From an uncultured Oscillibacter sp. (GTDB lineage: Bacteria; Bacillota; Clostridia; Oscillospirales; Oscillospiraceae), in assembly GCA_946530565.1 (NCBI GenBank), contig CAMNAE010000038.1, positions 1-10,083 on the forward strand: a stretch of 10,083 nucleotides of DNA, written 5' to 3'. The notes under the pieces were generated by a model, which had not been told where the DNA came from, ran no database searches, and saw only the letters and a list, made by a program, of their open reading frames with translations. A program made the position numbers and the translations under genes. Below, piece by piece: positions 35 through 10,083 of the stretch. Position 1 is the first letter of the stretch. The number at the start of each line of letters is the position of its first letter.

Positions 35-55
35 AAATCTCGCATAATATAAATT
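35..55. other. attL (21-bp core, first of three)
   Basis: The core is identical to 5032-5052 and 10029-10049. It contains an 11-bp arm ATCTCGCATAA (37-47) and the 6-bp centre TATAAA (48-53). The base before the core (A) is host, and the sequence from 56 on (AATTAGCTG) is element. The partner arm here is therefore the degenerate element version TTAATTAGCTG (54-64), not the host arm seen at attR. Strand exchange must lie inside the 21-bp identity. Confidence 0.88.
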
Positions 56-72
56 AATTAGCTGTTTTTTTG

Positions 73-118
73 AGCGCTGCTCACGTCCCTATGACAGGGA
101 AGTGGGCGGCGCTTTTTT
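73..118 (+). terminator. strong hairpin plus T-run in left-end leader (terminator or attenuator), copy 1
   Basis: Arm AGCGCTGCTCAC (73-84) pairs with GTGGGCGGCGCT (102-113) over 12 positions with two T-G wobbles. Inside, TCCCT (86-90) pairs with AGGGA (96-100) around loop ATGAC. The stem runs into TTTTTT (113-118). This is a convincing intrinsic terminator between the att core and the first gene at 152. The 5' arm can also fold on itself (TGAGC/GCTCA, loop GCT), a possible weak antiterminator. In this copy it would insulate the operon from host read-through. Confidence 0.75.
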
Positions 119-151
119 GCGCCCCGCAGCCAGTAGAAAGGGGAGGTAATC

Positions 152-334
152 ATGCAATACTGGTGTGTCATCTGCAAGGACCATCTCAACCGGGAGGGCG
201 TCACCGTCGGCGACATGTTGAGCCGATCGGAGGCGCTGCGCCTCGCTCGCACGATCAGCGAGTTTCAGGCGTGCGAGGTCTACATCATGGAGAGCGCCTT
301 TTGTGCGCCCGGTCAGAAAGGAGGGCGGCGCTGA
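152..334 (+). CDS. 60-aa CxxC small protein, copy 1
   Basis: First gene of the left operon. The start is set by GGGGAGG about 5 nt before the ATG. Residues C5 and C8 form a CxxC pair near the N terminus with H11 close by; C41 and C51 could complete a metal site, so a small zinc-binding or redox protein is plausible. The middle, about residues 22-40, is an Ala/Arg helix after a short beta-rich start. Its TGA overlaps the next ATG (TGATG), so the two genes are translationally coupled. I do not recognise the family; function unknown. Confidence 0.75.
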   Translation: MQYWCVICKDHLNREGVTVGDMLSRSEALRLARTISEFQACEVYIMESAFCAPGQKGGRR

Positions 335-618
335 TGCTGCGCATCTGCTGGAAATGCTGGTACTTCACCAACCGTCGCGGCCTGTTCGGCCTGTGCTATG
401 AGCCGGGCCACTTCCTCGCCGGCATGAGGACGCGCGGCCATGCTCCGTATAAATGCGCCCTGTGTCCGGCCTGTGATCACTTTTTTTTCTTTGAACAACA
501 GCCGCGCAAGCGGCAGGGGTCGAGGCTTTCGTCCCTGCTGCCGAGGCTGCAGCCCCGGCGGGTCATCGTGCGCCCCCGCGCACAGTATGACAGCGCCGGA
601 CAGACAAGGGAGGTCTGA
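334..618 (+). CDS. 94-aa Cys/His-rich zinc-finger-like protein, copy 1
   Basis: Starts at the ATG that overlaps the upstream stop, with GGAGG about 9 nt before it. It has two Cys clusters, C5-x2-C8 with C21 and H26, then C41-x2-C44-x2-C47 with H49. This suggests one or two zinc knuckles in residues 1-50. The C-terminal 40 residues are Arg-rich and may contact nucleic acid. An eight-T tract at 481-488 encodes a run of Phe between the two parts and could be slippage-prone. High third-position GC continues after the tract in the same frame, so I keep one continuous protein. No family recognised. Confidence 0.7.
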   Translation: MLRICWKCWYFTNRRGLFGLCYEPGHFLAGMRTRGHAPYKCALCPACDHFFFFEQQPRKRQGSRLSSLLPRLQPRRVIVRPRAQYDSAGQTREV

Positions 619-620
619 TC

Positions 621-782
621 ATGGCCGAGTGGTGCGGATGGTGGGACGTGGCTTGTGATGATCTGACGCCTGATGAGAAATACGATTGTCGCGCCGAGGG
701 TTTGTTCTGCTGCCCCGAAGAGTGCGAATTTTGCCTTGCCGGGTATGCAGCGGCCGAAGCCGCAGCGGAGGCCGAAGCATGA
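621..782 (+). CDS. 53-aa Cys-rich acidic protein, copy 1
   Basis: ATG at 621 with an excellent AAGGGAGGT site ending 6 nt upstream, only 2 nt after the previous stop. The protein has seven Cys (C5, C12, C23, C30, C31, C35, C38), including a CPEEC and a CxxC near residues 31-38. It then ends in an Ala/Glu-repeat tail (43-53) likely to be helical. This points to a compact metal-bound domain, perhaps a protein-interaction module. Its TGA overlaps a following ATG (ATGA at 779-782), continuing the coupled operon. Function unknown. Confidence 0.7.
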   Translation: MAEWCGWWDVACDDLTPDEKYDCRAEGLFCCPEECEFCLAGYAAAEAAAEAEA

Positions 783-805
783 GCGGCGGCAGATAGCGCG
801 ACGGC

Positions 806-1057
806 GTGATCGTGCGCCGCGTGTATGGCCAATCATACGGCGGCCGGAATCTCTACCGCGTATGGAGGGACAACGGCGAATGCTTCAGCATCGACGCAGC
901 CGACGCGGCGGAGGCGAAAGCCGAAGCCCGGCGGCGCTGGGCGCGGCTGGACGCAGAGCGAGCGGAGCGCGAAGCGCGCAGGGAACGCGAGCGCGGCGGA
1001 CTTGTCGAGGACTGGCACGAACTGGCCGCCGTGATGTGGGCGGCCGTGTTGGGATAA
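806..1057 (+). CDS. 83-aa charged helical protein; start disputed (in-frame TAG upstream), copy 1
   Basis: From GTG at 806 the protein has a short beta-rich start (residues 1-28) and then a long Ala/Glu/Arg helix (about 29-65, possible coiled coil). The GTG has no good ribosome-binding site. The better start signals belong to the in-frame ATG at 779, which has GGAGG about 9 nt upstream and overlaps the previous stop as ATGA. That frame meets TAG at 794-796 (codon 6) and then continues open into this gene. Either GTG is the true start by reinitiation, or the gene is nonsense-mutated, or TAG is suppressed. Function unknown. Confidence 0.6.
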   Translation: MIVRRVYGQSYGGRNLYRVWRDNGECFSIDAADAAEAKAEARRRWARLDAERAEREARRERERGGLVEDWHELAAVMWAAVLG

Positions 1058-1150
1058 AGGCCGGAAGCCCTTGCAAAAGCCGGAAGCCCAAGCAAAGCCG
1101 GGCAAAGCCCGGCAGCCTGGGCGACGGCAGCCAGGGCGACGGCCGAAAGG
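1058..1150 (+). repeat. intergenic mosaic repeat module A, copy 1
   Basis: Directly after the TAA of the 83-aa gene is a unit containing GAAGCCCTTGCAAAAGC (1064-1080). A degenerate version, GAAGCCCAAGCAAAGC (1083-1098), follows. Then come AGCCTGGGCGACGGC (1114-1128) and AGCCAGGGCGACGGCCGA (1129-1146). The same pieces recur at 1371-1541. No coding potential seen. Confidence 0.7.
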
Positions 1151-1164
1151 AAAGGGGGGACAGC

Positions 1165-1371
1165 ATGGCGAGATTTCAAGACTTGCCGCTTTTGAAGTGG
1201 GAAGTATATCACCCGACGCAGGGGCTGTCGATCGTACGAGCGCGCGATCAGATCGACGCGATACGCGAGGCGGCGCTTGCGTGGGGCGTCGATCCGTACA
1301 ATGACAGCTTTCTTGATGAGGTCATGGTCGGCGTTCATGTCGAAGACCATACCGGCCCGATGAGCATTTGA
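1165..1371 (+). CDS. 68-aa uncharacterised protein, copy 1
   Basis: ATG at 1165 with AAAGGGGGGA about 4 nt upstream. The predicted order is a beta-hairpin (residues 10-25), an amphipathic helix (about 27-40), and an acidic C-terminal half ending in a beta segment (53-61). The layout resembles the front part of the 83-aa and 60-aa gene products: a short beta-hairpin followed by a helix with spaced Ala. They may share a fold, which is inference only. Mosaic repeats lie on both sides and the gene is still in the left operon orientation. Function unknown. Confidence 0.7.
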   Translation: MARFQDLPLLKWEVYHPTQGLSIVRARDQIDAIREAALAWGVDPYNDSFLDEVMVGVHVEDHTGPMSI

Positions 1372-1560
1372 GGCCGGAAGCCCTTGCAAAAGCGCGACGC
1401 TGCGGCGGGCCCCGCAAGGCGGGAGGGCCGCATCGACGCGCAGCCAGGGCGACGGCCGATAGAGGCAGCGCGCACGACCCGAAGCCCTTGCAAAAGCCGG
1501 GCGCGCCGGCGACAGCCAGCGAAGCCCGGCAGCCAGGGCGAGGGGCAACGGTGCGCGCAG
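1371..1560 (+). repeat. intergenic mosaic repeat module B, copy 1
   Basis: Starts at the last base of the TGA of the 68-aa gene with the same 23 bp that follows the 83-aa gene (1058-1080 equals 1371-1393). GAAGCCCTTGCAAAAGC recurs at 1377-1393 and 1481-1497. AGCCAGGGCGACGGCCGA recurs at 1442-1459, and a shorter form at 1531-1541. Rearranged, T-poor GC-rich sequence lies between. Open frames across it exist only because stop codons need T. Confidence 0.7.
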
Positions 1561-1581
1561 CCGAGGAAAGGAGGGGAGGAC

Positions 1582-1863
1582 ATAGCCGAGACGAACAAGG
1601 CAGCCGTCACGCGCGTGACGCGGAAACTGCTGCAAAGAACGGAGGAGCTGCTCGACGCGGAAGTGTTGAGCAGCGCCGACCTTGATAAGCTCTCGAACGT
1701 AATCAAGGACGCGGCCGCGGTGCTGGGCGTCAAAAGCGCCCTTGACGCCCGAGAGCAGCGCGGCAAGATCGCGGTCTTGCTTCGACGCGCAGAGGGCGAG
1801 GACAGGAAGAACGAGCCTGTCGAGATTCTTTTCGCGCCCGATGTAGAAGACGCCGCGAAATGA
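1582..1863 (+). CDS. 93-aa helical protein with apparent ATA start, copy 1
   Basis: A very strong site, AAAGGAGGGGAGGA (1568-1581 region), is followed by ATA-GCC-GAG at 1582, where ATG would be expected. The next canonical in-frame start is GTG at 1615, which has no comparable site. The ordinary alternative would remove 11 residues. The product is helical: helix 1 about residues 5-28, helix 2 about 33-50, helix 3 about 55-75, and an acidic tail with a hydrophobic VEILF segment near 81-85. It is last in the left operon, followed directly by large hairpins. I do not recognise a characterised family; a small phage-type regulatory or DNA-binding protein is possible. Confidence 0.65.
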   Translation: MAETNKAAVTRVTRKLLQRTEELLDAEVLSSADLDKLSNVIKDAAAVLGVKSALDAREQRGKIAVLLRRAEGEDRKNEPVEILFAPDVEDAAK

Positions 1864-1874
1864 GAGCGTCCCTT

Positions 1875-1953
1875 GTTGAGCGCGCGCCGCGCTTGCGCGG
1901 CGCGCTTGTTCTCAACCTTCGCCCGCCCCGCGGAAACCTCGCGGGGGCGGGCG
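1875..1953. other. pair of very stable GC hairpins after the left operon, copy 1
   Basis: Hairpin 1: outer stem GTTGAG (1875-1880)/CTCAAC (1911-1916) and inner perfect 11-bp stem GCGCGCCGCGC (1882-1892)/GCGCGGCGCGC (1895-1905). Hairpin 2: CGCCCGCCCCGCG (1920-1932) pairs with 1940-1953, one bulged G, loop GAAACCT. There is no T-run after either, so they are not standard intrinsic terminators. They may protect the 3' end of the mRNA or act on single-stranded DNA during replication. Confidence 0.7.
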
Positions 1954-2318
1954 GGAGGAAAAGGGGCGCGGGGACAAGCACCAAGCTCGCGACCACGCAC
2001 CAGCCAGCGCGCCAGCCGACGCGCGAAAACGCACCCAGCCGAGACGAGCACAGACCACCGGCGCGGAGGGAACCGCGCCCGCGCGTTTCGAATATAGAGG
2101 AACGCGGGGCGCGGCTGGCCGAAGGCGGCCCCCCGCACCTTGTTGGCCCCCGCGCCGACCGCGCGCCCGCGCCGGGCGCGCGCCCCGGCGGCGCCGAAGA
2201 GCAGAGCGCCGGAAACAAAGGCGCGAACAACAAGCACAGCCCGGCGACGGCGACGGCGGGGCAGCGCACCCGAGCGCGGGCAAGACGGCGGCAAGGGGGA
2301 CTCCGGGGGGCCGCCGAA

Positions 2319-2340
2319 GCCCTTTTTCGGGCGCTTTTTT
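2319..2340 (+). terminator. weak terminator-like hairpin with T6, copy 1
   Basis: GCCC (2319-2322) and GGGC (2329-2332) flank TTTTTC, followed by GC and TTTTTT (2335-2340). The stem is only 4 bp, so the call is weak. The T-runs stand out because the surrounding several hundred bases are almost T-free. Confidence 0.25.
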
Positions 2341-2754
2341 GACGGGCGCCAGCACGCGCGCCATGGCGCTACGCGCCGGGCAGCGCGCGCCAGCCCGGCA
2401 AAAAGTGGAGGGCGCGAGAGACAGGGCGCGGAAAGACAGCGAACAGGAACAGCCGCGCCCGAAGAGCGCATACCGCTTTGCCCCCTTTGGGGGCAAGCGA
2501 CGCGCAGGACACGCCCCCCGACGCAGGAGAGGGGGCGCGCACAAGCGGCGCACGAGCGCAGCGAGCGTATCGACGAGCACCCAAAGCTGCACGCGAACGC
2601 CGAGGCACCCAGCCAGCGCGGGCCGCCGGAGCCTCCGCGACGGCGGCGCGCCGCGCAAGCGGCGCTTTGCCGCGCGGCCGATCTTCGGCCGCCGGTCGCC
2701 GGTCATCGGTTGGCCTCGTCTCAAAAGTGGGACGCTCAATCTGGCAGCAGCCGG

Positions 2755-2845
2755 AGAGGGCGGGCGCCGTACTTACGGCGCCTGTCCCTCTACTTGATAG
2801 AGGGACATTATTCCGTCAGTGGCGTCCACTGTGGAAGAGTGTCCC
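2755..2845 (+). promoter_or_regulatory. candidate double-strand origin and structured rep leader, copy 1
   Basis: Perfect hairpin GTCCCTCTA (2784-2792)/TAGAGGGAC (2798-2806) presents TACTTGATA across its loop. ACTTG/ATA is the sequence cut by phiX174 gpA and resembles the pC194-family nick site (CTTGATA), so a nick between 2796 and 2797 is predicted. Upstream is a perfect 9-bp hairpin GGCGCCGTA (2763-2771)/TACGGCGCC (2774-2782). Downstream is CAGTGG (2817-2822)/CCACTG (2826-2831). Alternative pairings AGAGGG 2755-2760 with CCCTCT 2786-2791, and GGGACA 2802-2807 with TGTCCC 2840-2845, exclude the origin hairpin. It lies immediately before the rep ribosome-binding site. Confidence 0.72.
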
Positions 2846-2860
2846 GGAGGAAAAAACAAG

Positions 2861-3739
2861 ATGTATCAAGGCACGGAAGCCCGGGCGATCATGCATAACG
2901 CCCTGACAAAGATATACCCCGATGGGGGAACAAAGACTCTTGTCGCAGATCGTCCGATCTTCCGGGAGAGGGGATGGGAGGAGCGCGGCAGCCTGGGCGG
3001 CCATGGCCGCCGCAAGCTGTCGCGCGGACGCTGCAAGCTGTCCCGACGCCTGCAAGGCAAGGGACGTCTTCGGGTAGTCCGGCGCTCGTCGCCGGACAGG
3101 GAAGAGCGCGCGCGCGACAATCTCGAGCGCAGCAAGAGACGGGCGCGCAGCGCCGTCTATGATCTCGCTCGATCGACGGACTTCCGGTATTTCGTGACGC
3201 TCACCGTCAGCCCGGAAAAGGTCGATCGACTGGATGATGGAGCTGTCTTCAAGAAGCTGCACAACTGGCTCGATAACAATGTCCGGCGGCATGGGCTGAC
3301 CTATGTCTTGATACCGGAGTATCACAAGAAGGGCGGCTTGCACTTTCACGCGTTTTTCAATGATGCGCTCCCGGTCGTTGATTCCGGGACTTTGTCTGTG
3401 CCGGGTGTCAAGCGGCCACGCAAGCCGCGCAGCGAAGCAGAGCGGCGGCGGCTGCTTGACGGCGGCGCTCATATCGTTTACAATCTCCCCGGATGGGATT
3501 TCGGTTTCACGACCGCGCTCGAGCTGTACGGCGATCGCCGGGCAGCCGTGGGCTATGTCGTGAAGTACATCACAAAGGCCGAGCGCAAGATCGGCGGCCG
3601 CTGGTATTACAGCGGCGGCAATCTGCGCCGGCCAGAAGTCCGGGCGCTCGATCTCGACTTCGACGCCGCGTATGGCGAGGCCGGCAGCGGCTTCGAGATC
3701 GGCAGCCTCGGCGCTATCTGCTGCAGCTTGGAGGGCTGA
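2861..3739 (+). CDS. rep: HUH rolling-circle replication initiator (phage/plasmid Rep), copy 1
   Basis: A 292-aa protein predicted to nick the origin and drive rolling-circle replication of the element. GGAGG (2846-2850) is 10 nt before ATG 2861. The N-terminal 95 residues are very basic. Motif I is FVTLTV (111-116). The metal-binding HUH motif is HFH (H161, H163) in a GLHFHAFF strand. The catalytic motif is GYVVKYITK, with Y232 and Y236 spaced as YxxKY, like the paired tyrosines of phiX174 gpA-type enzymes. No helicase domain follows, so a host helicase is needed. It overlaps no neighbour, and the next gene starts 4 nt after its stop. The family (G2P/ORF2-like Rep) is recognised from motifs; the exact subfamily is uncertain. 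Confidence 0.93.
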   Translation: MYQGTEARAIMHNALTKIYPDGGTKTLVADRPIFRERGWEERGSLGGHGRRKLSRGRCKLSRRLQGKGRLRVVRRSSPDREERARDNLERSKRRARSAVYDLARSTDFRYFVTLTVSPEKVDRLDDGAVFKKLHNWLDNNVRRHGLTYVLIPEYHKKGGLHFHAFFNDALPVVDSGTLSVPGVKRPRKPRSEAERRRLLDGGAHIVYNLPGWDFGFTTALELYGDRRAAVGYVVKYITKAERKIGGRWYYSGGNLRRPEVRALDLDFDAAYGEAGSGFEIGSLGAICCSLEG

Positions 3740-3743
3740 CACA

Positions 3744-4241
3744 ATGGAAGATCTACCATACACCACCGCGCAAGAGTTCCTTGCGCTGTTCGATATCGAC
3801 ACGGAGCGCAAGGGCGCGCGGGACTTCTGCGAGCTCGTTCGCCGGATGGCGCTGCTGCGCCGGTTTCCCGATCTGCGCGTCGGCTCTCACGAGATCGCCG
3901 CCTATGACATGAGCGTGCGCCACTGTTCGCCGCTTGTGTACTGGTCGAACATGAAGCGCGCGATCGCTCCGGCGGTCGAAGCTGATCGGGACACGCTGCG
4001 CGCGCTGCTCGGCTTCTCGCTGCCGGGTGACGGCAAGATCACGGTCTACGCCTTGGCCGTCGCTCTGTCCGGCTCGCTGTCGCTGATGCAGGCCGAATGG
4101 TATCGGCGGTTGATGGAGCACCACAGCCGGAAGGATATCCCGGATGACATGGCCGCGCCCATATACCTCGCGCAAGATTCTGATCGACAGGAGGCCGAGC
4201 AGCTCGCCGCAGCCATCCGGGGGAGGGGTAAGAAAAAATGA
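3744..4241 (+). CDS. 165-aa Rep-partner protein, possible Spo0A-C-like DNA-binding domain, copy 1
   Basis: Starts 4 nt after the rep stop with GGAGG inside the rep end, so it is co-transcribed and probably coupled with rep. Residues about 10-80 show a helical pattern like the Spo0A C-terminal domain: a KG pair near 23, helices, Y54, then a Ser-x2-V-x4-MKRAI segment near 62-73. This would be a helix-turn-helix DNA-binding domain. Residues 95-125 form a more hydrophobic helical part, and the C terminus is basic (GRGKKK). It could regulate rep or help origin recognition. The domain match is by eye only; the protein is otherwise uncharacterised. Confidence 0.8.
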   Translation: MEDLPYTTAQEFLALFDIDTERKGARDFCELVRRMALLRRFPDLRVGSHEIAAYDMSVRHCSPLVYWSNMKRAIAPAVEADRDTLRALLGFSLPGDGKITVYALAVALSGSLSLMQAEWYRRLMEHHSRKDIPDDMAAPIYLAQDSDRQEAEQLAAAIRGRGKKK

Positions 4242-4448
4242 TCGGACTCCCGGGGGGGTACCCCGGGAAAATTTGGTACCATATAACTGTGTTTTGCCTT
4301 GTGCCGCAATCGCTTGCCGAAAAAGCGGATTTTGCAATTTACAGTTCGGGAAAGTAAAGCCGGGCGCGAAAGCCGCCCGGCGCAGTTTACCGCAGCACCG
4401 GCGGGCGCCGGTTTGCGGACAGGAAAGGAAACAGGAGGGGAGAAGACT
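4242..4448 (+). promoter_or_regulatory. structured leader of int, copy 1
   Basis: A 207-nt gap with four good stem-loops: TCCCGGGG (4248-4255)/CCCCGGGA (4261-4268); an imperfect stem within 4306-4335; GCCGGGCG (4359-4366)/CGCCCGGC (4374-4381); and ACCGGCG (4397-4403)/CGCCGGT (4406-4412). None is followed by a T-run. A strong AGGAGGGG site lies at 4433-4440. I see no good promoter, so int may be read from rep transcripts, with this leader controlling its translation or mRNA stability. Confidence 0.5.
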
Positions 4449-4979
4449 ATCAGAACACAATATCTCGTAGAGGCACAGCTTGAGTTGCTGCTTGCCGGTC
4501 TGACCGTAGACAACCGGCTTGTTTGTCGCGTGATGCTCTGGACGGGTTTACGCGTGGGGGACGTGCTGGCGCTCCGGCAAGAGCAGCTTGCCCGGTGCTT
4601 TTGGATCACCGAGCAGAAGACCGGCAAGCGGCGAAAGGTGGGCTTGCCGGACACGCTGATTCATCAGATCAAGACACGGGCGGGCGGATCGCCGTGGGCG
4701 TTTCCGTCGCCGCGCAATCCGCAGCAGCCGCGCACGCGGCAGGCTGTGTGGTCTGACATCAACCGGACGGCGAAGGCGCTCCGGATCAAGGCCAACGCCG
4801 GGACGCACTCCATGCGGAAGGACTACGCCGTTGATCTCATGCACAAGTACGGCGACCTGCCGAAGGTGCAGCGCGCGCTCAATCACAGCAATCCGACGAT
4901 CACGGCGCTGTATGCGCTGGCCGATCAGCTTGTTGAAACATACCCGGAGCGCGCACAGCTTTTCCGGCGCCGTCGGTAA
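4449..4979 (+). CDS. int: catalytic-domain-only tyrosine recombinase (integrase), apparent ATC start, copy 1
   Basis: Predicted to recombine the att sites for integration and excision. From ATC 4449 it is 176 aa with the full catalytic set: R35 (TGLRVGD), K57 in the beta-hairpin, H120-x2-R123 (THSMR), H146 (ALNHS) and nucleophile Y155. There is no N-terminal core-binding or arm-binding domain; usual phage integrases are 300-400 aa. AGGAGGGG sits 8 nt before ATC, exactly where ATG is expected, and I associate related gut-Firmicute proteins with an N terminus like MRTQYL. An in-frame TTG at 4299 would add 50 unnatural residues encoded by the hairpin leader, so I reject it. It lies next to the right att site. 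Confidence 0.9.
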   Translation: MRTQYLVEAQLELLLAGLTVDNRLVCRVMLWTGLRVGDVLALRQEQLARCFWITEQKTGKRRKVGLPDTLIHQIKTRAGGSPWAFPSPRNPQQPRTRQAVWSDINRTAKALRIKANAGTHSMRKDYAVDLMHKYGDLPKVQRALNHSNPTITALYALADQLVETYPERAQLFRRRR

Positions 4980-4987
4980 AAAAACAG

Positions 4988-5017
4988 TTGACAGGAGAGG
5001 TGGCCTTGTGCTACCAT
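4988..5017 (+). promoter_or_regulatory. strong promoter at element right end, reading across the junction att site
   Basis: Perfect -35 TTGACA (4988-4993), 18-nt spacer, and -10 TACCAT (5012-5017) with an extended TGC before it. It points right across the core at 5032-5052, through the terminator-like hairpin at 5070-5115, into the left operon of copy 2. In the circular element it would do the same. Confidence 0.7.
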
Positions 5018-5031
5018 ATTTGCGGGGCGTG

Positions 5032-5052
5032 AAATCTCGCATAATATAAATT
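5032..5052. other. inter-copy att junction (attP equivalent)
   Basis: The same 21-bp core flanked on both sides by element sequence, with GGGGCGTG before and AATTAGCTG after. This is the joint expected in the excised circle. It places ATCTCGCATAA beside the degenerate partner arm TTAATTAGCTG. Confidence 0.88.
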
Positions 5053-5069
5053 AATTAGCTGTTTTTTTG

Positions 5070-5115
5070 AGCGCTGCTCACGTCCCTATGACAGGGAAGT
5101 GGGCGGCGCTTTTTT
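5070..5115 (+). terminator. left-end leader terminator or attenuator, copy 2
   Basis: Same 12-bp plus 5-bp stem and T6 as 73-118. Here it sits about 50 nt downstream of the -10 of the junction promoter (5012-5017), so it would decide whether transcripts from that promoter reach the operon. No leader peptide with its own ribosome-binding site is visible before it. Confidence 0.75.
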
Positions 5116-5148
5116 GCGCCCCGCAGCCAGTAGAAAGGGGAGGTAATC

Positions 5149-5331
5149 ATGCAATACTGGTGTGTCATCTGCAAGGACCATCTCAACCGGGAGGGCGTCA
5201 CCGTCGGCGACATGTTGAGCCGATCGGAGGCGCTGCGCCTCGCTCGCACGATCAGCGAGTTTCAGGCGTGCGAGGTCTACATCATGGAGAGCGCCTTTTG
5301 TGCGCCCGGTCAGAAAGGAGGGCGGCGCTGA
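5149..5331 (+). CDS. 60-aa CxxC small protein, copy 2
   Basis: Translation identical to the gene at 152-334: C5-x2-C8, C41, C51, GGGGAGG before the ATG, TGATG overlap with the next gene. In this copy it is the first gene after the junction promoter and attenuator, so it should be expressed more readily than copy 1. Function unknown. Confidence 0.75.
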   Translation: MQYWCVICKDHLNREGVTVGDMLSRSEALRLARTISEFQACEVYIMESAFCAPGQKGGRR

Positions 5332-5615
5332 TGCTGCGCATCTGCTGGAAATGCTGGTACTTCACCAACCGTCGCGGCCTGTTCGGCCTGTGCTATGAGC
5401 CGGGCCACTTCCTCGCCGGCATGAGGACGCGCGGCCATGCTCCGTATAAATGCGCCCTGTGTCCGGCCTGTGATCACTTTTTTTTCTTTGAACAACAGCC
5501 GCGCAAGCGGCAGGGGTCGAGGCTTTCGTCCCTGCTGCCGAGGCTGCAGCCCCGGCGGGTCATCGTGCGCCCCCGCGCACAGTATGACAGCGCCGGACAG
5601 ACAAGGGAGGTCTGA
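5331..5615 (+). CDS. 94-aa Cys/His-rich zinc-finger-like protein, copy 2
   Basis: Identical to 334-618, with two Cys clusters (residues 5-26 and 41-49), the Phe run from an eight-T tract at 5478-5485, and an Arg-rich tail. It is coupled to the upstream gene by a 1-nt overlap and followed 2 nt later by the 53-aa gene. Confidence 0.7.
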   Translation: MLRICWKCWYFTNRRGLFGLCYEPGHFLAGMRTRGHAPYKCALCPACDHFFFFEQQPRKRQGSRLSSLLPRLQPRRVIVRPRAQYDSAGQTREV

Positions 5616-5617
5616 TC

Positions 5618-5779
5618 ATGGCCGAGTGGTGCGGATGGTGGGACGTGGCTTGTGATGATCTGACGCCTGATGAGAAATACGATTGTCGCGCCGAGGGTTT
5701 GTTCTGCTGCCCCGAAGAGTGCGAATTTTGCCTTGCCGGGTATGCAGCGGCCGAAGCCGCAGCGGAGGCCGAAGCATGA
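5618..5779 (+). CDS. 53-aa Cys-rich acidic protein, copy 2
   Basis: Identical to 621-782: seven Cys in the first 38 residues and an Ala/Glu tail, AAGGGAGGT upstream. Its TGA overlaps ATG 5776, the apparent but TAG-interrupted start of the next gene. Confidence 0.7.
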   Translation: MAEWCGWWDVACDDLTPDEKYDCRAEGLFCCPEECEFCLAGYAAAEAAAEAEA

Positions 5780-5802
5780 GCGGCGGCAGATAGCGCGACG
5801 GC

Positions 5803-6054
5803 GTGATCGTGCGCCGCGTGTATGGCCAATCATACGGCGGCCGGAATCTCTACCGCGTATGGAGGGACAACGGCGAATGCTTCAGCATCGACGCAGCCGA
5901 CGCGGCGGAGGCGAAAGCCGAAGCCCGGCGGCGCTGGGCGCGGCTGGACGCAGAGCGAGCGGAGCGCGAAGCGCGCAGGGAACGCGAGCGCGGCGGACTT
6001 GTCGAGGACTGGCACGAACTGGCCGCCGTGATGTGGGCGGCCGTGTTGGGATAA
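5803..6054 (+). CDS. 83-aa charged helical protein; same in-frame TAG upstream, copy 2
   Basis: Identical to 806-1057. The coupled ATG at 5776 again meets TAG (5791-5793) at codon 6 and stays open afterwards. The presence of the TAG in both copies argues against a random base-call error, unless one copy was assembled from the other's reads. Confidence 0.6.
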   Translation: MIVRRVYGQSYGGRNLYRVWRDNGECFSIDAADAAEAKAEARRRWARLDAERAEREARRERERGGLVEDWHELAAVMWAAVLG

Positions 6055-6147
6055 AGGCCGGAAGCCCTTGCAAAAGCCGGAAGCCCAAGCAAAGCCGGGC
6101 AAAGCCCGGCAGCCTGGGCGACGGCAGCCAGGGCGACGGCCGAAAGG
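6055..6147 (+). repeat. intergenic mosaic repeat module A, copy 2
   Basis: Same arrangement as 1058-1150: GAAGCCCTTGCAAAAGC at 6061-6077 and AGCCAGGGCGACGGCCGA at 6126-6143, directly after the TAA of the 83-aa gene. Confidence 0.7.
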
Positions 6148-6161
6148 AAAGGGGGGACAGC

Positions 6162-6368
6162 ATGGCGAGATTTCAAGACTTGCCGCTTTTGAAGTGGGAA
6201 GTATATCACCCGACGCAGGGGCTGTCGATCGTACGAGCGCGCGATCAGATCGACGCGATACGCGAGGCGGCGCTTGCGTGGGGCGTCGATCCGTACAATG
6301 ACAGCTTTCTTGATGAGGTCATGGTCGGCGTTCATGTCGAAGACCATACCGGCCCGATGAGCATTTGA
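6162..6368 (+). CDS. 68-aa uncharacterised protein, copy 2
   Basis: Identical to 1165-1371: beta-hairpin, amphipathic helix and acidic C-terminal half, with AAAGGGGGGA before the ATG and mosaic repeats on both sides. Function unknown. Confidence 0.7.
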   Translation: MARFQDLPLLKWEVYHPTQGLSIVRARDQIDAIREAALAWGVDPYNDSFLDEVMVGVHVEDHTGPMSI

Positions 6369-6557
6369 GGCCGGAAGCCCTTGCAAAAGCGCGACGCTGC
6401 GGCGGGCCCCGCAAGGCGGGAGGGCCGCATCGACGCGCAGCCAGGGCGACGGCCGATAGAGGCAGCGCGCACGACCCGAAGCCCTTGCAAAAGCCGGGCG
6501 CGCCGGCGACAGCCAGCGAAGCCCGGCAGCCAGGGCGAGGGGCAACGGTGCGCGCAG
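6368..6557 (+). repeat. intergenic mosaic repeat module B, copy 2
   Basis: Same as 1371-1560, with the 17-bp unit at 6374-6390 and 6478-6494 and the 18-bp AGCCAGGG unit at 6439-6456. Confidence 0.7.
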
Positions 6558-6578
6558 CCGAGGAAAGGAGGGGAGGAC

Positions 6579-6860
6579 ATAGCCGAGACGAACAAGGCAG
6601 CCGTCACGCGCGTGACGCGGAAACTGCTGCAAAGAACGGAGGAGCTGCTCGACGCGGAAGTGTTGAGCAGCGCCGACCTTGATAAGCTCTCGAACGTAAT
6701 CAAGGACGCGGCCGCGGTGCTGGGCGTCAAAAGCGCCCTTGACGCCCGAGAGCAGCGCGGCAAGATCGCGGTCTTGCTTCGACGCGCAGAGGGCGAGGAC
6801 AGGAAGAACGAGCCTGTCGAGATTCTTTTCGCGCCCGATGTAGAAGACGCCGCGAAATGA
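6579..6860 (+). CDS. 93-aa helical protein with apparent ATA start, copy 2
   Basis: Identical to 1582-1863, including the strong GGAGGGGAGGA site followed by ATA at 6579. The first canonical in-frame alternative is GTG at 6612. Last gene of the left operon, followed by the GC hairpins at 6872-6950. Confidence 0.65.
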   Translation: MAETNKAAVTRVTRKLLQRTEELLDAEVLSSADLDKLSNVIKDAAAVLGVKSALDAREQRGKIAVLLRRAEGEDRKNEPVEILFAPDVEDAAK

Positions 6861-6871
6861 GAGCGTCCCTT

Positions 6872-6950
6872 GTTGAGCGCGCGCCGCGCTTGCGCGGCGC
6901 GCTTGTTCTCAACCTTCGCCCGCCCCGCGGAAACCTCGCGGGGGCGGGCG
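6872..6950. other. pair of very stable GC hairpins after the left operon, copy 2
   Basis: Same stems as 1875-1953: a perfect 11-bp GC stem inside a 6-bp outer stem, then a 13-bp GC stem with one bulge. No T-run follows. Confidence 0.7.
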
Positions 6951-7315
6951 GGAGGAAAAGGGGCGCGGGGACAAGCACCAAGCTCGCGACCACGCACCAG
7001 CCAGCGCGCCAGCCGACGCGCGAAAACGCACCCAGCCGAGACGAGCACAGACCACCGGCGCGGAGGGAACCGCGCCCGCGCGTTTCGAATATAGAGGAAC
7101 GCGGGGCGCGGCTGGCCGAAGGCGGCCCCCCGCACCTTGTTGGCCCCCGCGCCGACCGCGCGCCCGCGCCGGGCGCGCGCCCCGGCGGCGCCGAAGAGCA
7201 GAGCGCCGGAAACAAAGGCGCGAACAACAAGCACAGCCCGGCGACGGCGACGGCGGGGCAGCGCACCCGAGCGCGGGCAAGACGGCGGCAAGGGGGACTC
7301 CGGGGGGCCGCCGAA

Positions 7316-7337
7316 GCCCTTTTTCGGGCGCTTTTTT
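7316..7337 (+). terminator. weak terminator-like hairpin with T6, copy 2
   Basis: Same as 2319-2340: a 4-bp stem then TTTTTT. Weak call. Confidence 0.25.
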
Positions 7338-7751
7338 GACGGGCGCCAGCACGCGCGCCATGGCGCTACGCGCCGGGCAGCGCGCGCCAGCCCGGCAAAA
7401 AGTGGAGGGCGCGAGAGACAGGGCGCGGAAAGACAGCGAACAGGAACAGCCGCGCCCGAAGAGCGCATACCGCTTTGCCCCCTTTGGGGGCAAGCGACGC
7501 GCAGGACACGCCCCCCGACGCAGGAGAGGGGGCGCGCACAAGCGGCGCACGAGCGCAGCGAGCGTATCGACGAGCACCCAAAGCTGCACGCGAACGCCGA
7601 GGCACCCAGCCAGCGCGGGCCGCCGGAGCCTCCGCGACGGCGGCGCGCCGCGCAAGCGGCGCTTTGCCGCGCGGCCGATCTTCGGCCGCCGGTCGCCGGT
7701 CATCGGTTGGCCTCGTCTCAAAAGTGGGACGCTCAATCTGGCAGCAGCCGG

Positions 7752-7842
7752 AGAGGGCGGGCGCCGTACTTACGGCGCCTGTCCCTCTACTTGATAGAGG
7801 GACATTATTCCGTCAGTGGCGTCCACTGTGGAAGAGTGTCCC
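7752..7842 (+). promoter_or_regulatory. candidate double-strand origin and structured rep leader, copy 2
   Basis: Same as 2755-2845, with the predicted nick between 7793 and 7794 in the TACTTGATA loop. It lies exactly 4,997 nt after the copy 1 nick, so initiation at one origin and termination at the other would release one unit-length single-stranded circle. Confidence 0.72.
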
Positions 7843-7857
7843 GGAGGAAAAAACAAG

Positions 7858-8736
7858 ATGTATCAAGGCACGGAAGCCCGGGCGATCATGCATAACGCCC
7901 TGACAAAGATATACCCCGATGGGGGAACAAAGACTCTTGTCGCAGATCGTCCGATCTTCCGGGAGAGGGGATGGGAGGAGCGCGGCAGCCTGGGCGGCCA
8001 TGGCCGCCGCAAGCTGTCGCGCGGACGCTGCAAGCTGTCCCGACGCCTGCAAGGCAAGGGACGTCTTCGGGTAGTCCGGCGCTCGTCGCCGGACAGGGAA
8101 GAGCGCGCGCGCGACAATCTCGAGCGCAGCAAGAGACGGGCGCGCAGCGCCGTCTATGATCTCGCTCGATCGACGGACTTCCGGTATTTCGTGACGCTCA
8201 CCGTCAGCCCGGAAAAGGTCGATCGACTGGATGATGGAGCTGTCTTCAAGAAGCTGCACAACTGGCTCGATAACAATGTCCGGCGGCATGGGCTGACCTA
8301 TGTCTTGATACCGGAGTATCACAAGAAGGGCGGCTTGCACTTTCACGCGTTTTTCAATGATGCGCTCCCGGTCGTTGATTCCGGGACTTTGTCTGTGCCG
8401 GGTGTCAAGCGGCCACGCAAGCCGCGCAGCGAAGCAGAGCGGCGGCGGCTGCTTGACGGCGGCGCTCATATCGTTTACAATCTCCCCGGATGGGATTTCG
8501 GTTTCACGACCGCGCTCGAGCTGTACGGCGATCGCCGGGCAGCCGTGGGCTATGTCGTGAAGTACATCACAAAGGCCGAGCGCAAGATCGGCGGCCGCTG
8601 GTATTACAGCGGCGGCAATCTGCGCCGGCCAGAAGTCCGGGCGCTCGATCTCGACTTCGACGCCGCGTATGGCGAGGCCGGCAGCGGCTTCGAGATCGGC
8701 AGCCTCGGCGCTATCTGCTGCAGCTTGGAGGGCTGA
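7858..8736 (+). CDS. rep: HUH rolling-circle replication initiator, copy 2
   Basis: Translation identical to 2861-3739: FVTLTV, HFH and YVVKY motifs all intact. Two intact rep genes in cis could raise Rep dosage and act on either origin. Confidence 0.93.
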   Translation: MYQGTEARAIMHNALTKIYPDGGTKTLVADRPIFRERGWEERGSLGGHGRRKLSRGRCKLSRRLQGKGRLRVVRRSSPDREERARDNLERSKRRARSAVYDLARSTDFRYFVTLTVSPEKVDRLDDGAVFKKLHNWLDNNVRRHGLTYVLIPEYHKKGGLHFHAFFNDALPVVDSGTLSVPGVKRPRKPRSEAERRRLLDGGAHIVYNLPGWDFGFTTALELYGDRRAAVGYVVKYITKAERKIGGRWYYSGGNLRRPEVRALDLDFDAAYGEAGSGFEIGSLGAICCSLEG

Positions 8737-8740
8737 CACA

Positions 8741-9238
8741 ATGGAAGATCTACCATACACCACCGCGCAAGAGTTCCTTGCGCTGTTCGATATCGACACG
8801 GAGCGCAAGGGCGCGCGGGACTTCTGCGAGCTCGTTCGCCGGATGGCGCTGCTGCGCCGGTTTCCCGATCTGCGCGTCGGCTCTCACGAGATCGCCGCCT
8901 ATGACATGAGCGTGCGCCACTGTTCGCCGCTTGTGTACTGGTCGAACATGAAGCGCGCGATCGCTCCGGCGGTCGAAGCTGATCGGGACACGCTGCGCGC
9001 GCTGCTCGGCTTCTCGCTGCCGGGTGACGGCAAGATCACGGTCTACGCCTTGGCCGTCGCTCTGTCCGGCTCGCTGTCGCTGATGCAGGCCGAATGGTAT
9101 CGGCGGTTGATGGAGCACCACAGCCGGAAGGATATCCCGGATGACATGGCCGCGCCCATATACCTCGCGCAAGATTCTGATCGACAGGAGGCCGAGCAGC
9201 TCGCCGCAGCCATCCGGGGGAGGGGTAAGAAAAAATGA
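8741..9238 (+). CDS. 165-aa Rep-partner protein, possible Spo0A-C-like domain, copy 2
   Basis: Identical to 3744-4241, 4 nt after the rep stop with GGAGG inside the rep end. The DNA-binding assignment rests only on the helical pattern and the MKRAI segment near residues 69-73. Confidence 0.8.
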   Translation: MEDLPYTTAQEFLALFDIDTERKGARDFCELVRRMALLRRFPDLRVGSHEIAAYDMSVRHCSPLVYWSNMKRAIAPAVEADRDTLRALLGFSLPGDGKITVYALAVALSGSLSLMQAEWYRRLMEHHSRKDIPDDMAAPIYLAQDSDRQEAEQLAAAIRGRGKKK

Positions 9239-9445
9239 TCGGACTCCCGGGGGGGTACCCCGGGAAAATTTGGTACCATATAACTGTGTTTTGCCTTGTG
9301 CCGCAATCGCTTGCCGAAAAAGCGGATTTTGCAATTTACAGTTCGGGAAAGTAAAGCCGGGCGCGAAAGCCGCCCGGCGCAGTTTACCGCAGCACCGGCG
9401 GGCGCCGGTTTGCGGACAGGAAAGGAAACAGGAGGGGAGAAGACT
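9239..9445 (+). promoter_or_regulatory. structured leader of int, copy 2
   Basis: Same four stem-loops as 4242-4448, at 9245-9265, 9303-9332, 9356-9378 and 9394-9409, then AGGAGGGG at 9430-9437. No clear promoter. Confidence 0.5.
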
Positions 9446-9976
9446 ATCAGAACACAATATCTCGTAGAGGCACAGCTTGAGTTGCTGCTTGCCGGTCTGA
9501 CCGTAGACAACCGGCTTGTTTGTCGCGTGATGCTCTGGACGGGTTTACGCGTGGGGGACGTGCTGGCGCTCCGGCAAGAGCAGCTTGCCCGGTGCTTTTG
9601 GATCACCGAGCAGAAGACCGGCAAGCGGCGAAAGGTGGGCTTGCCGGACACGCTGATTCATCAGATCAAGACACGGGCGGGCGGATCGCCGTGGGCGTTT
9701 CCGTCGCCGCGCAATCCGCAGCAGCCGCGCACGCGGCAGGCTGTGTGGTCTGACATCAACCGGACGGCGAAGGCGCTCCGGATCAAGGCCAACGCCGGGA
9801 CGCACTCCATGCGGAAGGACTACGCCGTTGATCTCATGCACAAGTACGGCGACCTGCCGAAGGTGCAGCGCGCGCTCAATCACAGCAATCCGACGATCAC
9901 GGCGCTGTATGCGCTGGCCGATCAGCTTGTTGAAACATACCCGGAGCGCGCACAGCTTTTCCGGCGCCGTCGGTAA
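9446..9976 (+). CDS. int: catalytic-domain-only tyrosine recombinase (integrase), apparent ATC start, copy 2
   Basis: Identical to 4449-4979, with the R/K/HxxR/H/Y catalytic set complete and the same ATC at the expected start (9446). This copy lies beside attR and the host flank. Confidence 0.9.
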   Translation: MRTQYLVEAQLELLLAGLTVDNRLVCRVMLWTGLRVGDVLALRQEQLARCFWITEQKTGKRRKVGLPDTLIHQIKTRAGGSPWAFPSPRNPQQPRTRQAVWSDINRTAKALRIKANAGTHSMRKDYAVDLMHKYGDLPKVQRALNHSNPTITALYALADQLVETYPERAQLFRRRR

Positions 9977-9984
9977 AAAAACAG

Positions 9985-10014
9985 TTGACAGGAGAGGTGG
10001 CCTTGTGCTACCAT
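9985..10014 (+). promoter_or_regulatory. right-end promoter of copy 2, pointing outward through attR
   Basis: Same TTGACA, 18-nt spacer and TGC-TACCAT as 4988-5017. Here it reads through attR into host DNA, so it may express a neighbouring host gene until the element excises. Confidence 0.7.
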
Positions 10015-10028
10015 ATTTGCGGGGCGTG

Positions 10029-10060
10029 AAATCTCGCATAATATAAATTTAGCGAGATTT
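10029..10060. other. attR: 21-bp core plus intact host arm, dif-like inverted repeat
   Basis: The core (10029-10049) continues into host sequence to give an inverted repeat, AAATCTCGC (10029-10037) and GCGAGATTT (10052-10060). It has the XerCD/dif layout of 11-6-11: arm ATCTCGCATAA (10031-10041), centre TATAAA (10042-10047), arm TTTAGCGAGAT (10048-10058). The CATAATATA middle matches Firmicute dif sites. The full site is kept at the right end, as in dif-integrated elements. Whether this is the host's real dif is unproven. Confidence 0.75.
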
Positions 10061-10083
10061 ACAATGGCTTTTTTTATAGTTGT
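10061..10083. other. host chromosome, right flank
   Basis: A short AT-rich stretch with a T7 run. ATG at 10064 opens a frame but has no ribosome-binding site and runs off the window, so no gene is called. Confidence 0.5.

Follow-up and report, generated by a model that had tools for sequence, protein, structure and literature searches.

A 5-kb rolling-circle element with its own short tyrosine recombinase at a dif-like site in Clostridia

Organization of the locus

The window, i.e., the whole stretch of 10,083 nt analyzed here, is an entire contig. Its positions 35-5052 and 5032-10049 form a direct repeat with a period of 4,997 nt and zero mismatches over 5,018 nt, in agreement with the two direct 4,997-bp copies described in the initial annotation. 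Outside 35-10049 the self-similarity ends sharply, and all the chromosomal flank present amounts to exactly 34 nt per side (1-34 on the left, 10050-10083 on the right). The left flank has no second occurrence in the bin at up to 3 mismatches. A core of 21 nt occurs three times in the bin, at positions 35, 5032, and 10029, all on the + strand. The first copy (35-55) is the putative attL, where the left half of dif is followed by the element's own AATTAG, and the second (5032-5052) is an attP-type junction between the two units. Only the right copy runs on into a palindrome, AAATCTCGCATAATATAAATTTAGCGAGATTT (10029-10060), in which core and flank together make up a complete dif-like site, the putative attR. 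By their sequence, the ends of the element are site-specific. A duplication by homologous recombination was rejected because the ends of the repeat are attachment sites. A tRNA could be discarded as the attachment site, since there is none in the window, nor in the loci L029, L030, L031, and L033.

Each unit encodes a predicted rolling-circle initiator of the HUH type (rep, 292 aa, 2861-3739 and, in identical form, 7858-8736, + strand), which matches PF23343 (E=1.1e-13) and phrog_3419 (E=3.2e-12) when scanned as the translation from the start at 2819. Upstream lies a candidate double-strand origin (2786-2819, second copy by sequence match at 7783-7816, + strand), made of a 7-bp hairpin, CCCTCTA-CTTGA-TAGAGGG, and ACATTATTCCGTCAG. 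The sequence TACTTGATA is found on the + strand at 2791 and 7788 only, and is absent from the - strand. Nicking is expected at 2796/2797, directly after the G of TACTTG^ATA. The motif TACTTGATA is located upstream of rep in 27 of the 33 loci examined and was not found in the remaining 6. The rep gene and the candidate origin that had been annotated in each copy both stand, and the pairing of a known Rep family with a predicted nick site upstream is that of a rolling-circle replicon.

The second recognizable gene, int (4449-4979, with an identical copy at 9446-9976, + strand), encodes a tyrosine recombinase of about 175-176 aa reduced to the catalytic domain (PF00589, E=6.4e-20). All the catalytic residues are present and are invariant across 22 aligned sequences; the AlphaFold model of the protein has a middling mean pLDDT of 69.6. 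The rest of the unit includes a 165-aa ORF (3744-4241, + strand) without significant family match and small + strand ORFs of unassigned function (152-334, 334-618, 621-782, 806-1057, 1165-1371, and a frame ending at 1863, with second copies 4,997 nt downstream), which have no Pfam match at E<=1 and PHROG matches only at E>0.05. No capsid gene was recognizable among the nine ORFs scanned, as previously noted, and these nine ORFs include no coat or assembly gene of filamentous phages of the kind expected in a CTXphi-like prophage. The initial annotation had overlooked the three 21-nt cores, the dif-like palindrome on the right-hand side, and the recombinase (4449-4979); nor did it mention that the window is a whole contig with flanks of 34 nt.

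Both proteins belong to large families, with 4,085 homologues of Int and 1,147 of Rep at E<=0.001, few of which carry names among the matches listed. The search with the Int alignment retrieved 47 loci in genomes and 12 in viral contigs; among the latter, a Rep match was also present in L121 only. Isolates with a relative include Flavonifractor sp. An82, Flavonifractor sp. AGMB03687, and Oscillibacter ruminantium GH1. Scans with single sequences revealed no relative, either with Rep in the genome contigs or with Rep and Int in the viral contigs.

A dif-like site that lies close to xer in relatives

Relatives share this anatomy, and in them the palindrome is the dif of the host. Among the 42 loci with enough sequence, 29 have a palindrome close behind int, compared with 4 of 227 control windows, and 13 lack a palindrome with at least 10 paired arm bases. 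A full-length xer gene lies at most 500 nt from the palindrome in 26 of 31 related loci, which is the arrangement of single-Xer modules (XerS/difSL, XerH/difH, or XerL type), where dif adjoins the recombinase gene; in the window the flank extends for just 34 nt. In the closest relative, L074, a homologous site and flank are found with xer 494 nt away. The palindrome of the bin's genus is present in 39 of 42 high-quality genomes and in 64 of 86 genomes (with a single occurrence in 56), and the GC skew flips at this site in genome G108. From these patterns, we conclude that such palindromes in the Clostridia relatives are dif.

The palindrome of the window is not the same as the dif found in the bin's genus; we call it dif-like on the basis of its homology to L074 and to the family. 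Its 32-mer attB was found at up to 3 mismatches only in G000 itself among 60 relatives and has no exact match in the viral contigs. The 28-mer at the same threshold was again restricted to G000 among 394 genomes of the order, and the 22-mer at up to 2 mismatches occurs in 2 of 391 genomes of the class (G000 and G700). The bin has no close xer and only weak matches to this gene, with at best 36% and 31% identity, which makes the binning of the contig tentative.

Taken together, the contig looks like a self-replicating mobile element of 5 kb that encodes a short recombinase of its own and has inserted at a dif-like chromosomal site. We estimate at roughly 75% the probability that it is a rolling-circle replicon of 4,997 bp with site-specific integration at the host dif, beside a recombinase gene of the single-Xer type. 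Recombination between the half-dif of the circle and the chromosomal dif would be carried out by the element's short Int, by the Xer of the host, or by both enzymes. This would rebuild dif on the right side, where further units could then join in tandem. Units may be released by a CTXphi-like process, in which Rep starts with a nick at one origin of a tandem and finishes at the next, and/or by excision through Int or Xer.

A tandem array or an assembly path

The two copies are as printed in the assembly, and the cell may carry two, or one together with free circles. Since the contig contains an attP junction, circles, tandem arrays, or both must be present in the sample, and the two printed copies would be how an assembler rendered the loop that these form. 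We give even odds to the doubling being an artefact, with an integrated copy in some cells, free circles besides, and a loop that the assembler walked twice between chromosomal branch points. The contig stops after 34 nt on both sides, and flank and core add up to 55 nt (34 + 21), a length that recurs in the bin: among its 158 contig ends, there is one pair with an overlap of exactly 55 nt, and another end has a repeat of exactly that length. Both ends thus look like branch points of the assembly graph, which would mean that the same flanks are joined differently in the sample, either as an empty dif or with another element. Moreover, identical copies are beyond the resolution of short reads, 16 of the 17 relatives with both ends visible have a single copy, and circular contigs exist among the relatives (L098 and L110). 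Against an artefact, an independent tandem with the same layout lies inside a 197-kb contig in L084, although that contig, judging by its NODE-type name, may come from a similar assembler. The restoration of dif also makes true tandems likely to arise, and together with L084 it renders CTXphi-like tandems plausible.

The initial annotation proposed a true chromosomal tandem, in which Rep nicks one origin and stops at the next to produce unit circles in the manner of CTXphi, a reading that we hold possible rather than probable. The order attL, attP, attR with a full dif at the right only, the conserved origin, the double unit of L084, and the CTXphi precedent described in PMC4439123 all point to it. 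The window does display the tandem and the dif at one end, but the copy number may be a product of assembly, and the prevalence of single copies among the relatives weighs against this reading. So does the element's own recombinase, which implies that replication from a tandem would not be the sole exit route. As worded, the claims that release occurs without excision and that the array stays in the chromosome are therefore not sustained, given the complete catalytic site of Int and the branch-like ends of the contig. Two features could also suggest a dimer or concatemer of a plasmid without any chromosome, with terminal 34 nt that are mere noise: the flanks are no longer than this, and most of the Rep and Int homologues among the matches listed are on contigs of about 1-5 kb. 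We rejected this very improbable reading because the right flank completes dif; this flank also resembles the one beside xer in L074, and both ends are visible in 17 relatives.

Significance and comparison with known systems

A site-specific rolling-circle replicon at dif gives the large Int and Rep families a defined place in the chromosome and a likely life cycle; the element also marks dif/xer modules of gut Clostridia. We tentatively suggest, while leaning against it for now, that Clostridia harbor a family of rolling-circle elements of roughly 2-5 kb with catalytic-domain-only recombinases at single-Xer-type dif sites. Inovirus-like prophages that lack an integrase would use dif as well and could provide the packaging, and the whole would be a separately evolved satellite system akin to CTXphi/RS1, in which the recombinase and dif restoration build tandems and Rep turns them into unit circles. 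If so, the tandem-plus-rolling-circle strategy of Vibrio phages would have a counterpart in the gut that uses another enzyme for integration. Among the papers listed in our literature searches, none describes dif-targeting elements with Rep and Int in Clostridia in its title or the opening of its abstract.

Several known elements share part of this organization. The circular plasmids pRGF00147, pRGI00952, pRGI00836, and pRGF00030 (2.5-3.8 kb) encode members of the same short Int family (44-54% identity), and two of them show dif-like half-sites in an uncontrolled comparison; none of the four matched the Rep queries. Conversely, bajarodino virus 76, of the gut Inoviridae, has a related Rep (32% identity) but is an 8.8-kb phage with Zot and genes of structural size, and no match to the short Int. 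The microvirus proviruses of Bacteroidetes (BMV) are described as small elements resembling ssDNA viruses, placed between dif-like sequences; they differ in having capsid genes and no integrase gene (PMC3091885).

Like IMEX (integrative mobile elements exploiting Xer), the element has a mimic of dif and occupies the dif of its host; in the window, homology to L074 and to the other members of the family is what identifies the site as dif. IMEX depend on the host Xer and have no recombinase of their own; this element encodes a tyrosine recombinase, and either enzyme may act. The IMEX LME-1 of Legionella, which uses a single-recombinase dif, is reported to have a 22-bp att that matches part of dif exactly, with an intact dif on one side and a modified one on the other, but it relies on the host XerL, is not described with a rolling-circle Rep in the passages compared, and resides in an unrelated host (PMC9765430). 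A further parallel is with CTXphi and its satellite RS1, IMEX of the V. cholerae dif, and it extends beyond that of the initial annotation to the dif-like site and to the full dif at the right end only. According to the accounts in PMC4439123 and PMC4246890, these elements combine a rolling-circle Rep with integration at dif, rebuild a functional dif on one side, which permits tandem insertions (PMC4439123), and are released by replication between tandem copies; tandem formation and this mode of release may be shared by the element described here. CTXphi lacks its own recombinase, uses XerC/XerD, and has capsid genes, whereas the element described here bears a short tyrosine recombinase and has a Clostridia-type host with a dif-adjacent Xer. 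Elements of this kind are already known, and the novelty lies in the element's own mini-recombinase, the dif of single-Xer type, and the occurrence in Clostridia.

The repeated element and its genes

Contig C38, which makes up the entire window (10,083 bp), comes from bin G000 (306 contigs, 69% complete). The initial annotation described two direct copies of 4,997 bp, and this was borne out: the stretches 35-5052 and 5032-10049 are identical at all 5,018 positions, with identity lost abruptly beyond them. A 21-nt core, AAATCTCGCATAATATAAATT, lies at 35 (attL, flank-core-element), at 5032 (attP, element-core-element), and at 10029 (attR, element-core-flank), with no further copy elsewhere in the bin at up to 2 mismatches. 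It extends into the palindrome AAATCTCGCATAATATAAATTTAGCGAGATTT at attR only, and is followed by the element's own AATTAGCTGTT at attL and attP.

The gene rep (2861-3739), whose ORF was scanned from its start at 2819, falls in PF23343 (E=1.1e-13) and, among PHROG families, in the rolling-circle family phrog_3419 (E=3.2e-12). HFH and YVVKY motifs, to which we presume functional roles, can be read off its sequence. The product of int (4449-4979; PF00589, E=6.4e-20) aligns with the catalytic C-terminus of longer recombinases with solved structures, e.g., XerD, XerA, and XerH. The homologues among the matches listed are mostly 150-230 aa long, in a search that admits only lengths near that of the query, and R35, K60, H120, R123, H146, and Y155, which we take to be catalytic, are kept in 22/22 aligned sequences. 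The ATC at 4449 and 9446 aligns with the ATG start of the homologues and follows a good ribosome-binding sequence; isoleucine is also found at this position in the homologues P0121 and P0122, and a TTG lies further upstream in the open frame, at 4299. A non-standard start codon is possible. Each unit also has three copies of a GC-rich motif (CCGGAAGCCCTTGCAAAAGCC...) among small ORFs (1061-1127, 1374-1407, and 1478-1544). The nine ORFs scanned gave no match to Zot, coat, or packaging families, in agreement with the lack of capsid genes noted in the initial annotation.

An Int alignment search of GTDB genome contigs returned 47 loci, 45 of which are by title Clostridia or lower groups of it, the others being L098 ("Bacterium") and L110 (Paludibacteraceae). 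The nick site proposed in the initial annotation, TACTTG^ATA at 2796/2797, is part of a 7-bp hairpin with full pairing that precedes ACATTATTCCGTCAG, and presumably resembles that of pC194-type replicons. In 27/33 loci, window counted, CTTGATA occurs in the 330 nt that precede the Rep match; this leaves out 15 of the 48 loci (47 plus the window), all but one of which (L115) lack a Rep match or have it truncated where the contig starts. The motif was not found in these 330 nt in L078, L081, L105, L108, and L118, and in L074 just 69 nt are available, the contig starting inside the conserved origin motif (1-12). Contigs of several other relatives likewise start inside rep or shortly before it. 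On both strands of the 47 loci (1.14 million strand-bases), TACTTGATA occurs 35 times, for about 4 expected at equal base frequencies. One relative, L085, has a second, distant Rep match (3884-4687) about 2 kb downstream of Int.

Probable integration at dif

We scanned the 42 of 48 loci in which int is followed by 300 nt or more (the window, where only 107 nt follow, is excluded) for palindromes of 26-28 nt with an AT-rich centre, within 1.2 kb. They were found in 29/42 loci vs 4/227 control windows from the same loci when 10 or more of 11 arm bases had to pair, and in 31/42 vs 7/227 when 9 sufficed, one of the 31 (L113) not being at its att. In 26 of 31 loci, no more than 500 nt separate the palindrome from a full-length Xer-like gene; two of the 26 are the loci of the query genes themselves. 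In L081 and L105 this gene lies past the element's other end, in L087 it is 0.9 kb away, in L079 a weak match at 1.4 kb is all there is, and none was found near the palindrome of L095. Proximity between dif and the recombinase gene is presented in PMC5357621 as a possible hallmark of single-recombinase systems. Upstream of the element in L117 there are several extra left half-dif sites (6536, 6580, and 7140), as would be left by the decay of earlier insertions at dif.

Within the bin's genus, the palindrome TTGAACAAAATNNNNATTTTGTTCAA (up to 2 mismatches) is present in 64/86 genomes, as a single occurrence in 56 of those, and in 39/42 high-quality ones; it was not found in G000 at the same threshold. 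It belongs to the host, because any Rep relative is present in just 12/86 genomes, G000 among them. Rep and Int are both present in 4/14 genus loci fetched. In G108, a single contig of 3.58 Mb, the palindrome is at 3,550,507, and GC skew changes from +0.038 over the 20 kb up to 3,545,000 to -0.028 over the 20 kb that begin at 3,556,001; it is positive in all five samples at 2.6-3.4 Mb, negative in 9/10 at 0-1.8 Mb, and mixed at 2.0-2.4 Mb.

The window's own site is of another type. Its 32-mer was found in G000 alone among 60 relatives, its 28-mer (up to 3 mismatches) in G000 alone among 394 genomes of the order, and its 22-mer core has one 2-mismatch match among 391 genomes of the class, in G700. 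The Int of L074 is 75% identical to that of the window, its site is AAATCTCGCATAATATCAATTTAACGATATTTTATACTGGCTTTTT for AAATCTCGCATAATATAAATTTAGCGAGATTTACAATGGCTTTTTT in the window, and 494 nt beyond it begins a 333-aa Xer-like gene with Phage_integrase and SAM-like domains (TIGR02224, E=9e-70, yet under its cut-off). The L105 and L118 cores differ from the window's by 1 and 2 mismatches, respectively, over 22 nt. The best reading, by homology, is that the window's attachment site is a dif. The bin's genus has a different dif, and a close xer of either type was not found in G000; C38 may be mis-binned.

Two inovirus-like prophages, in two genomes of the bin's genus, also occupy dif, beside xer: L038 8916-15163 (about 6.2 kb) and L037 3064-9741 (about 6.7 kb). 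Each combines a full dif with a half dif, gives no match to the short Int, and encodes an ATPase resembling protein I/Zot (phrog_1675, E=4e-8 and 3.5e-7) whose best match is phrog_25712, a family without known function; a Pfam Zot match, below cut-off, occurs in L038 only. The Rep of L038, where this was tested, is of the window's family (PF23343, E=1.5e-7), and 27 phage records match the window's Rep, the one opened being classed as Inoviridae. A satellite-helper relation between elements like the window's and such prophages is conceivable.

Tandem array or assembly loop

The window's flanks are exactly 34 nt each (1-34 and 10050-10083), and 34+21=55. We compared 158 contig ends, from the window and 80 other contigs. 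Two of them overlap each other by exactly 55 nt, a third recurs over exactly 55 nt, and eight more have repeated prefixes of 17-54 nt. These lengths fit a de Bruijn assembly with k=55, a usual assembler setting. Both ends of the contig, each made of flank plus core, would then be branching vertices, with the flanks also linked to the core in one or more other arrangements in the sample, either an empty dif or a different element sharing that core. The assembly graph must also contain a loop through attP, from circles, tandems, or both, and the number of unit turns printed in the contig is the assembler's choice. The 197-kb contig L084, from another MAG, has two exact 3,417-bp units (a run of 3,437 nt), a core of 20 nt, and its only full dif at the right end, which speaks for real tandems, though its name is also of the NODE type. 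It is the only tandem among the 17 relatives with both ends marked by a shared core of at least 12 nt, the other 16 being single (L076, L077, L078, L081-L083, L086, L087, L091, L092, L096, L106, L108, L113, L117, and L118). Int (E≤1e-20) is present in 13/400 family genomes and double in two of them, G000 and G1010, the copies in the latter being 3,417 bp apart, consistent with L084. Circular forms are found as well: L098 and L110 have a 141-nt end-to-end self-overlap and were read as circles, and four circular plasmid records code for an Int of the window's family, 2/4 with dif-like half-sites by a loose pattern used without control.

Proposed mechanism and known parallels

A circle integrating through its half-dif would rebuild the full dif at just one of the two ends, where further units could then be added. 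In a true tandem, nicks at 2796/2797 and 7793/7794 would free exactly one unit with one attP junction, a release that we infer from the anatomy of the element. PMC4439123 and PMC4246890 give the one-sided full dif as the reason for CTXphi tandems, and have free copies of this dif-integrating Vibrio phage arise by rolling-circle replication between tandem copies. The Legionella element LME-1, as described in PMC9765430, is the single-recombinase parallel of the window's element. Unlike CTXphi and LME-1, the latter carries its own short recombinase, and its integration could be carried out by its own Int, the host Xer, or both.
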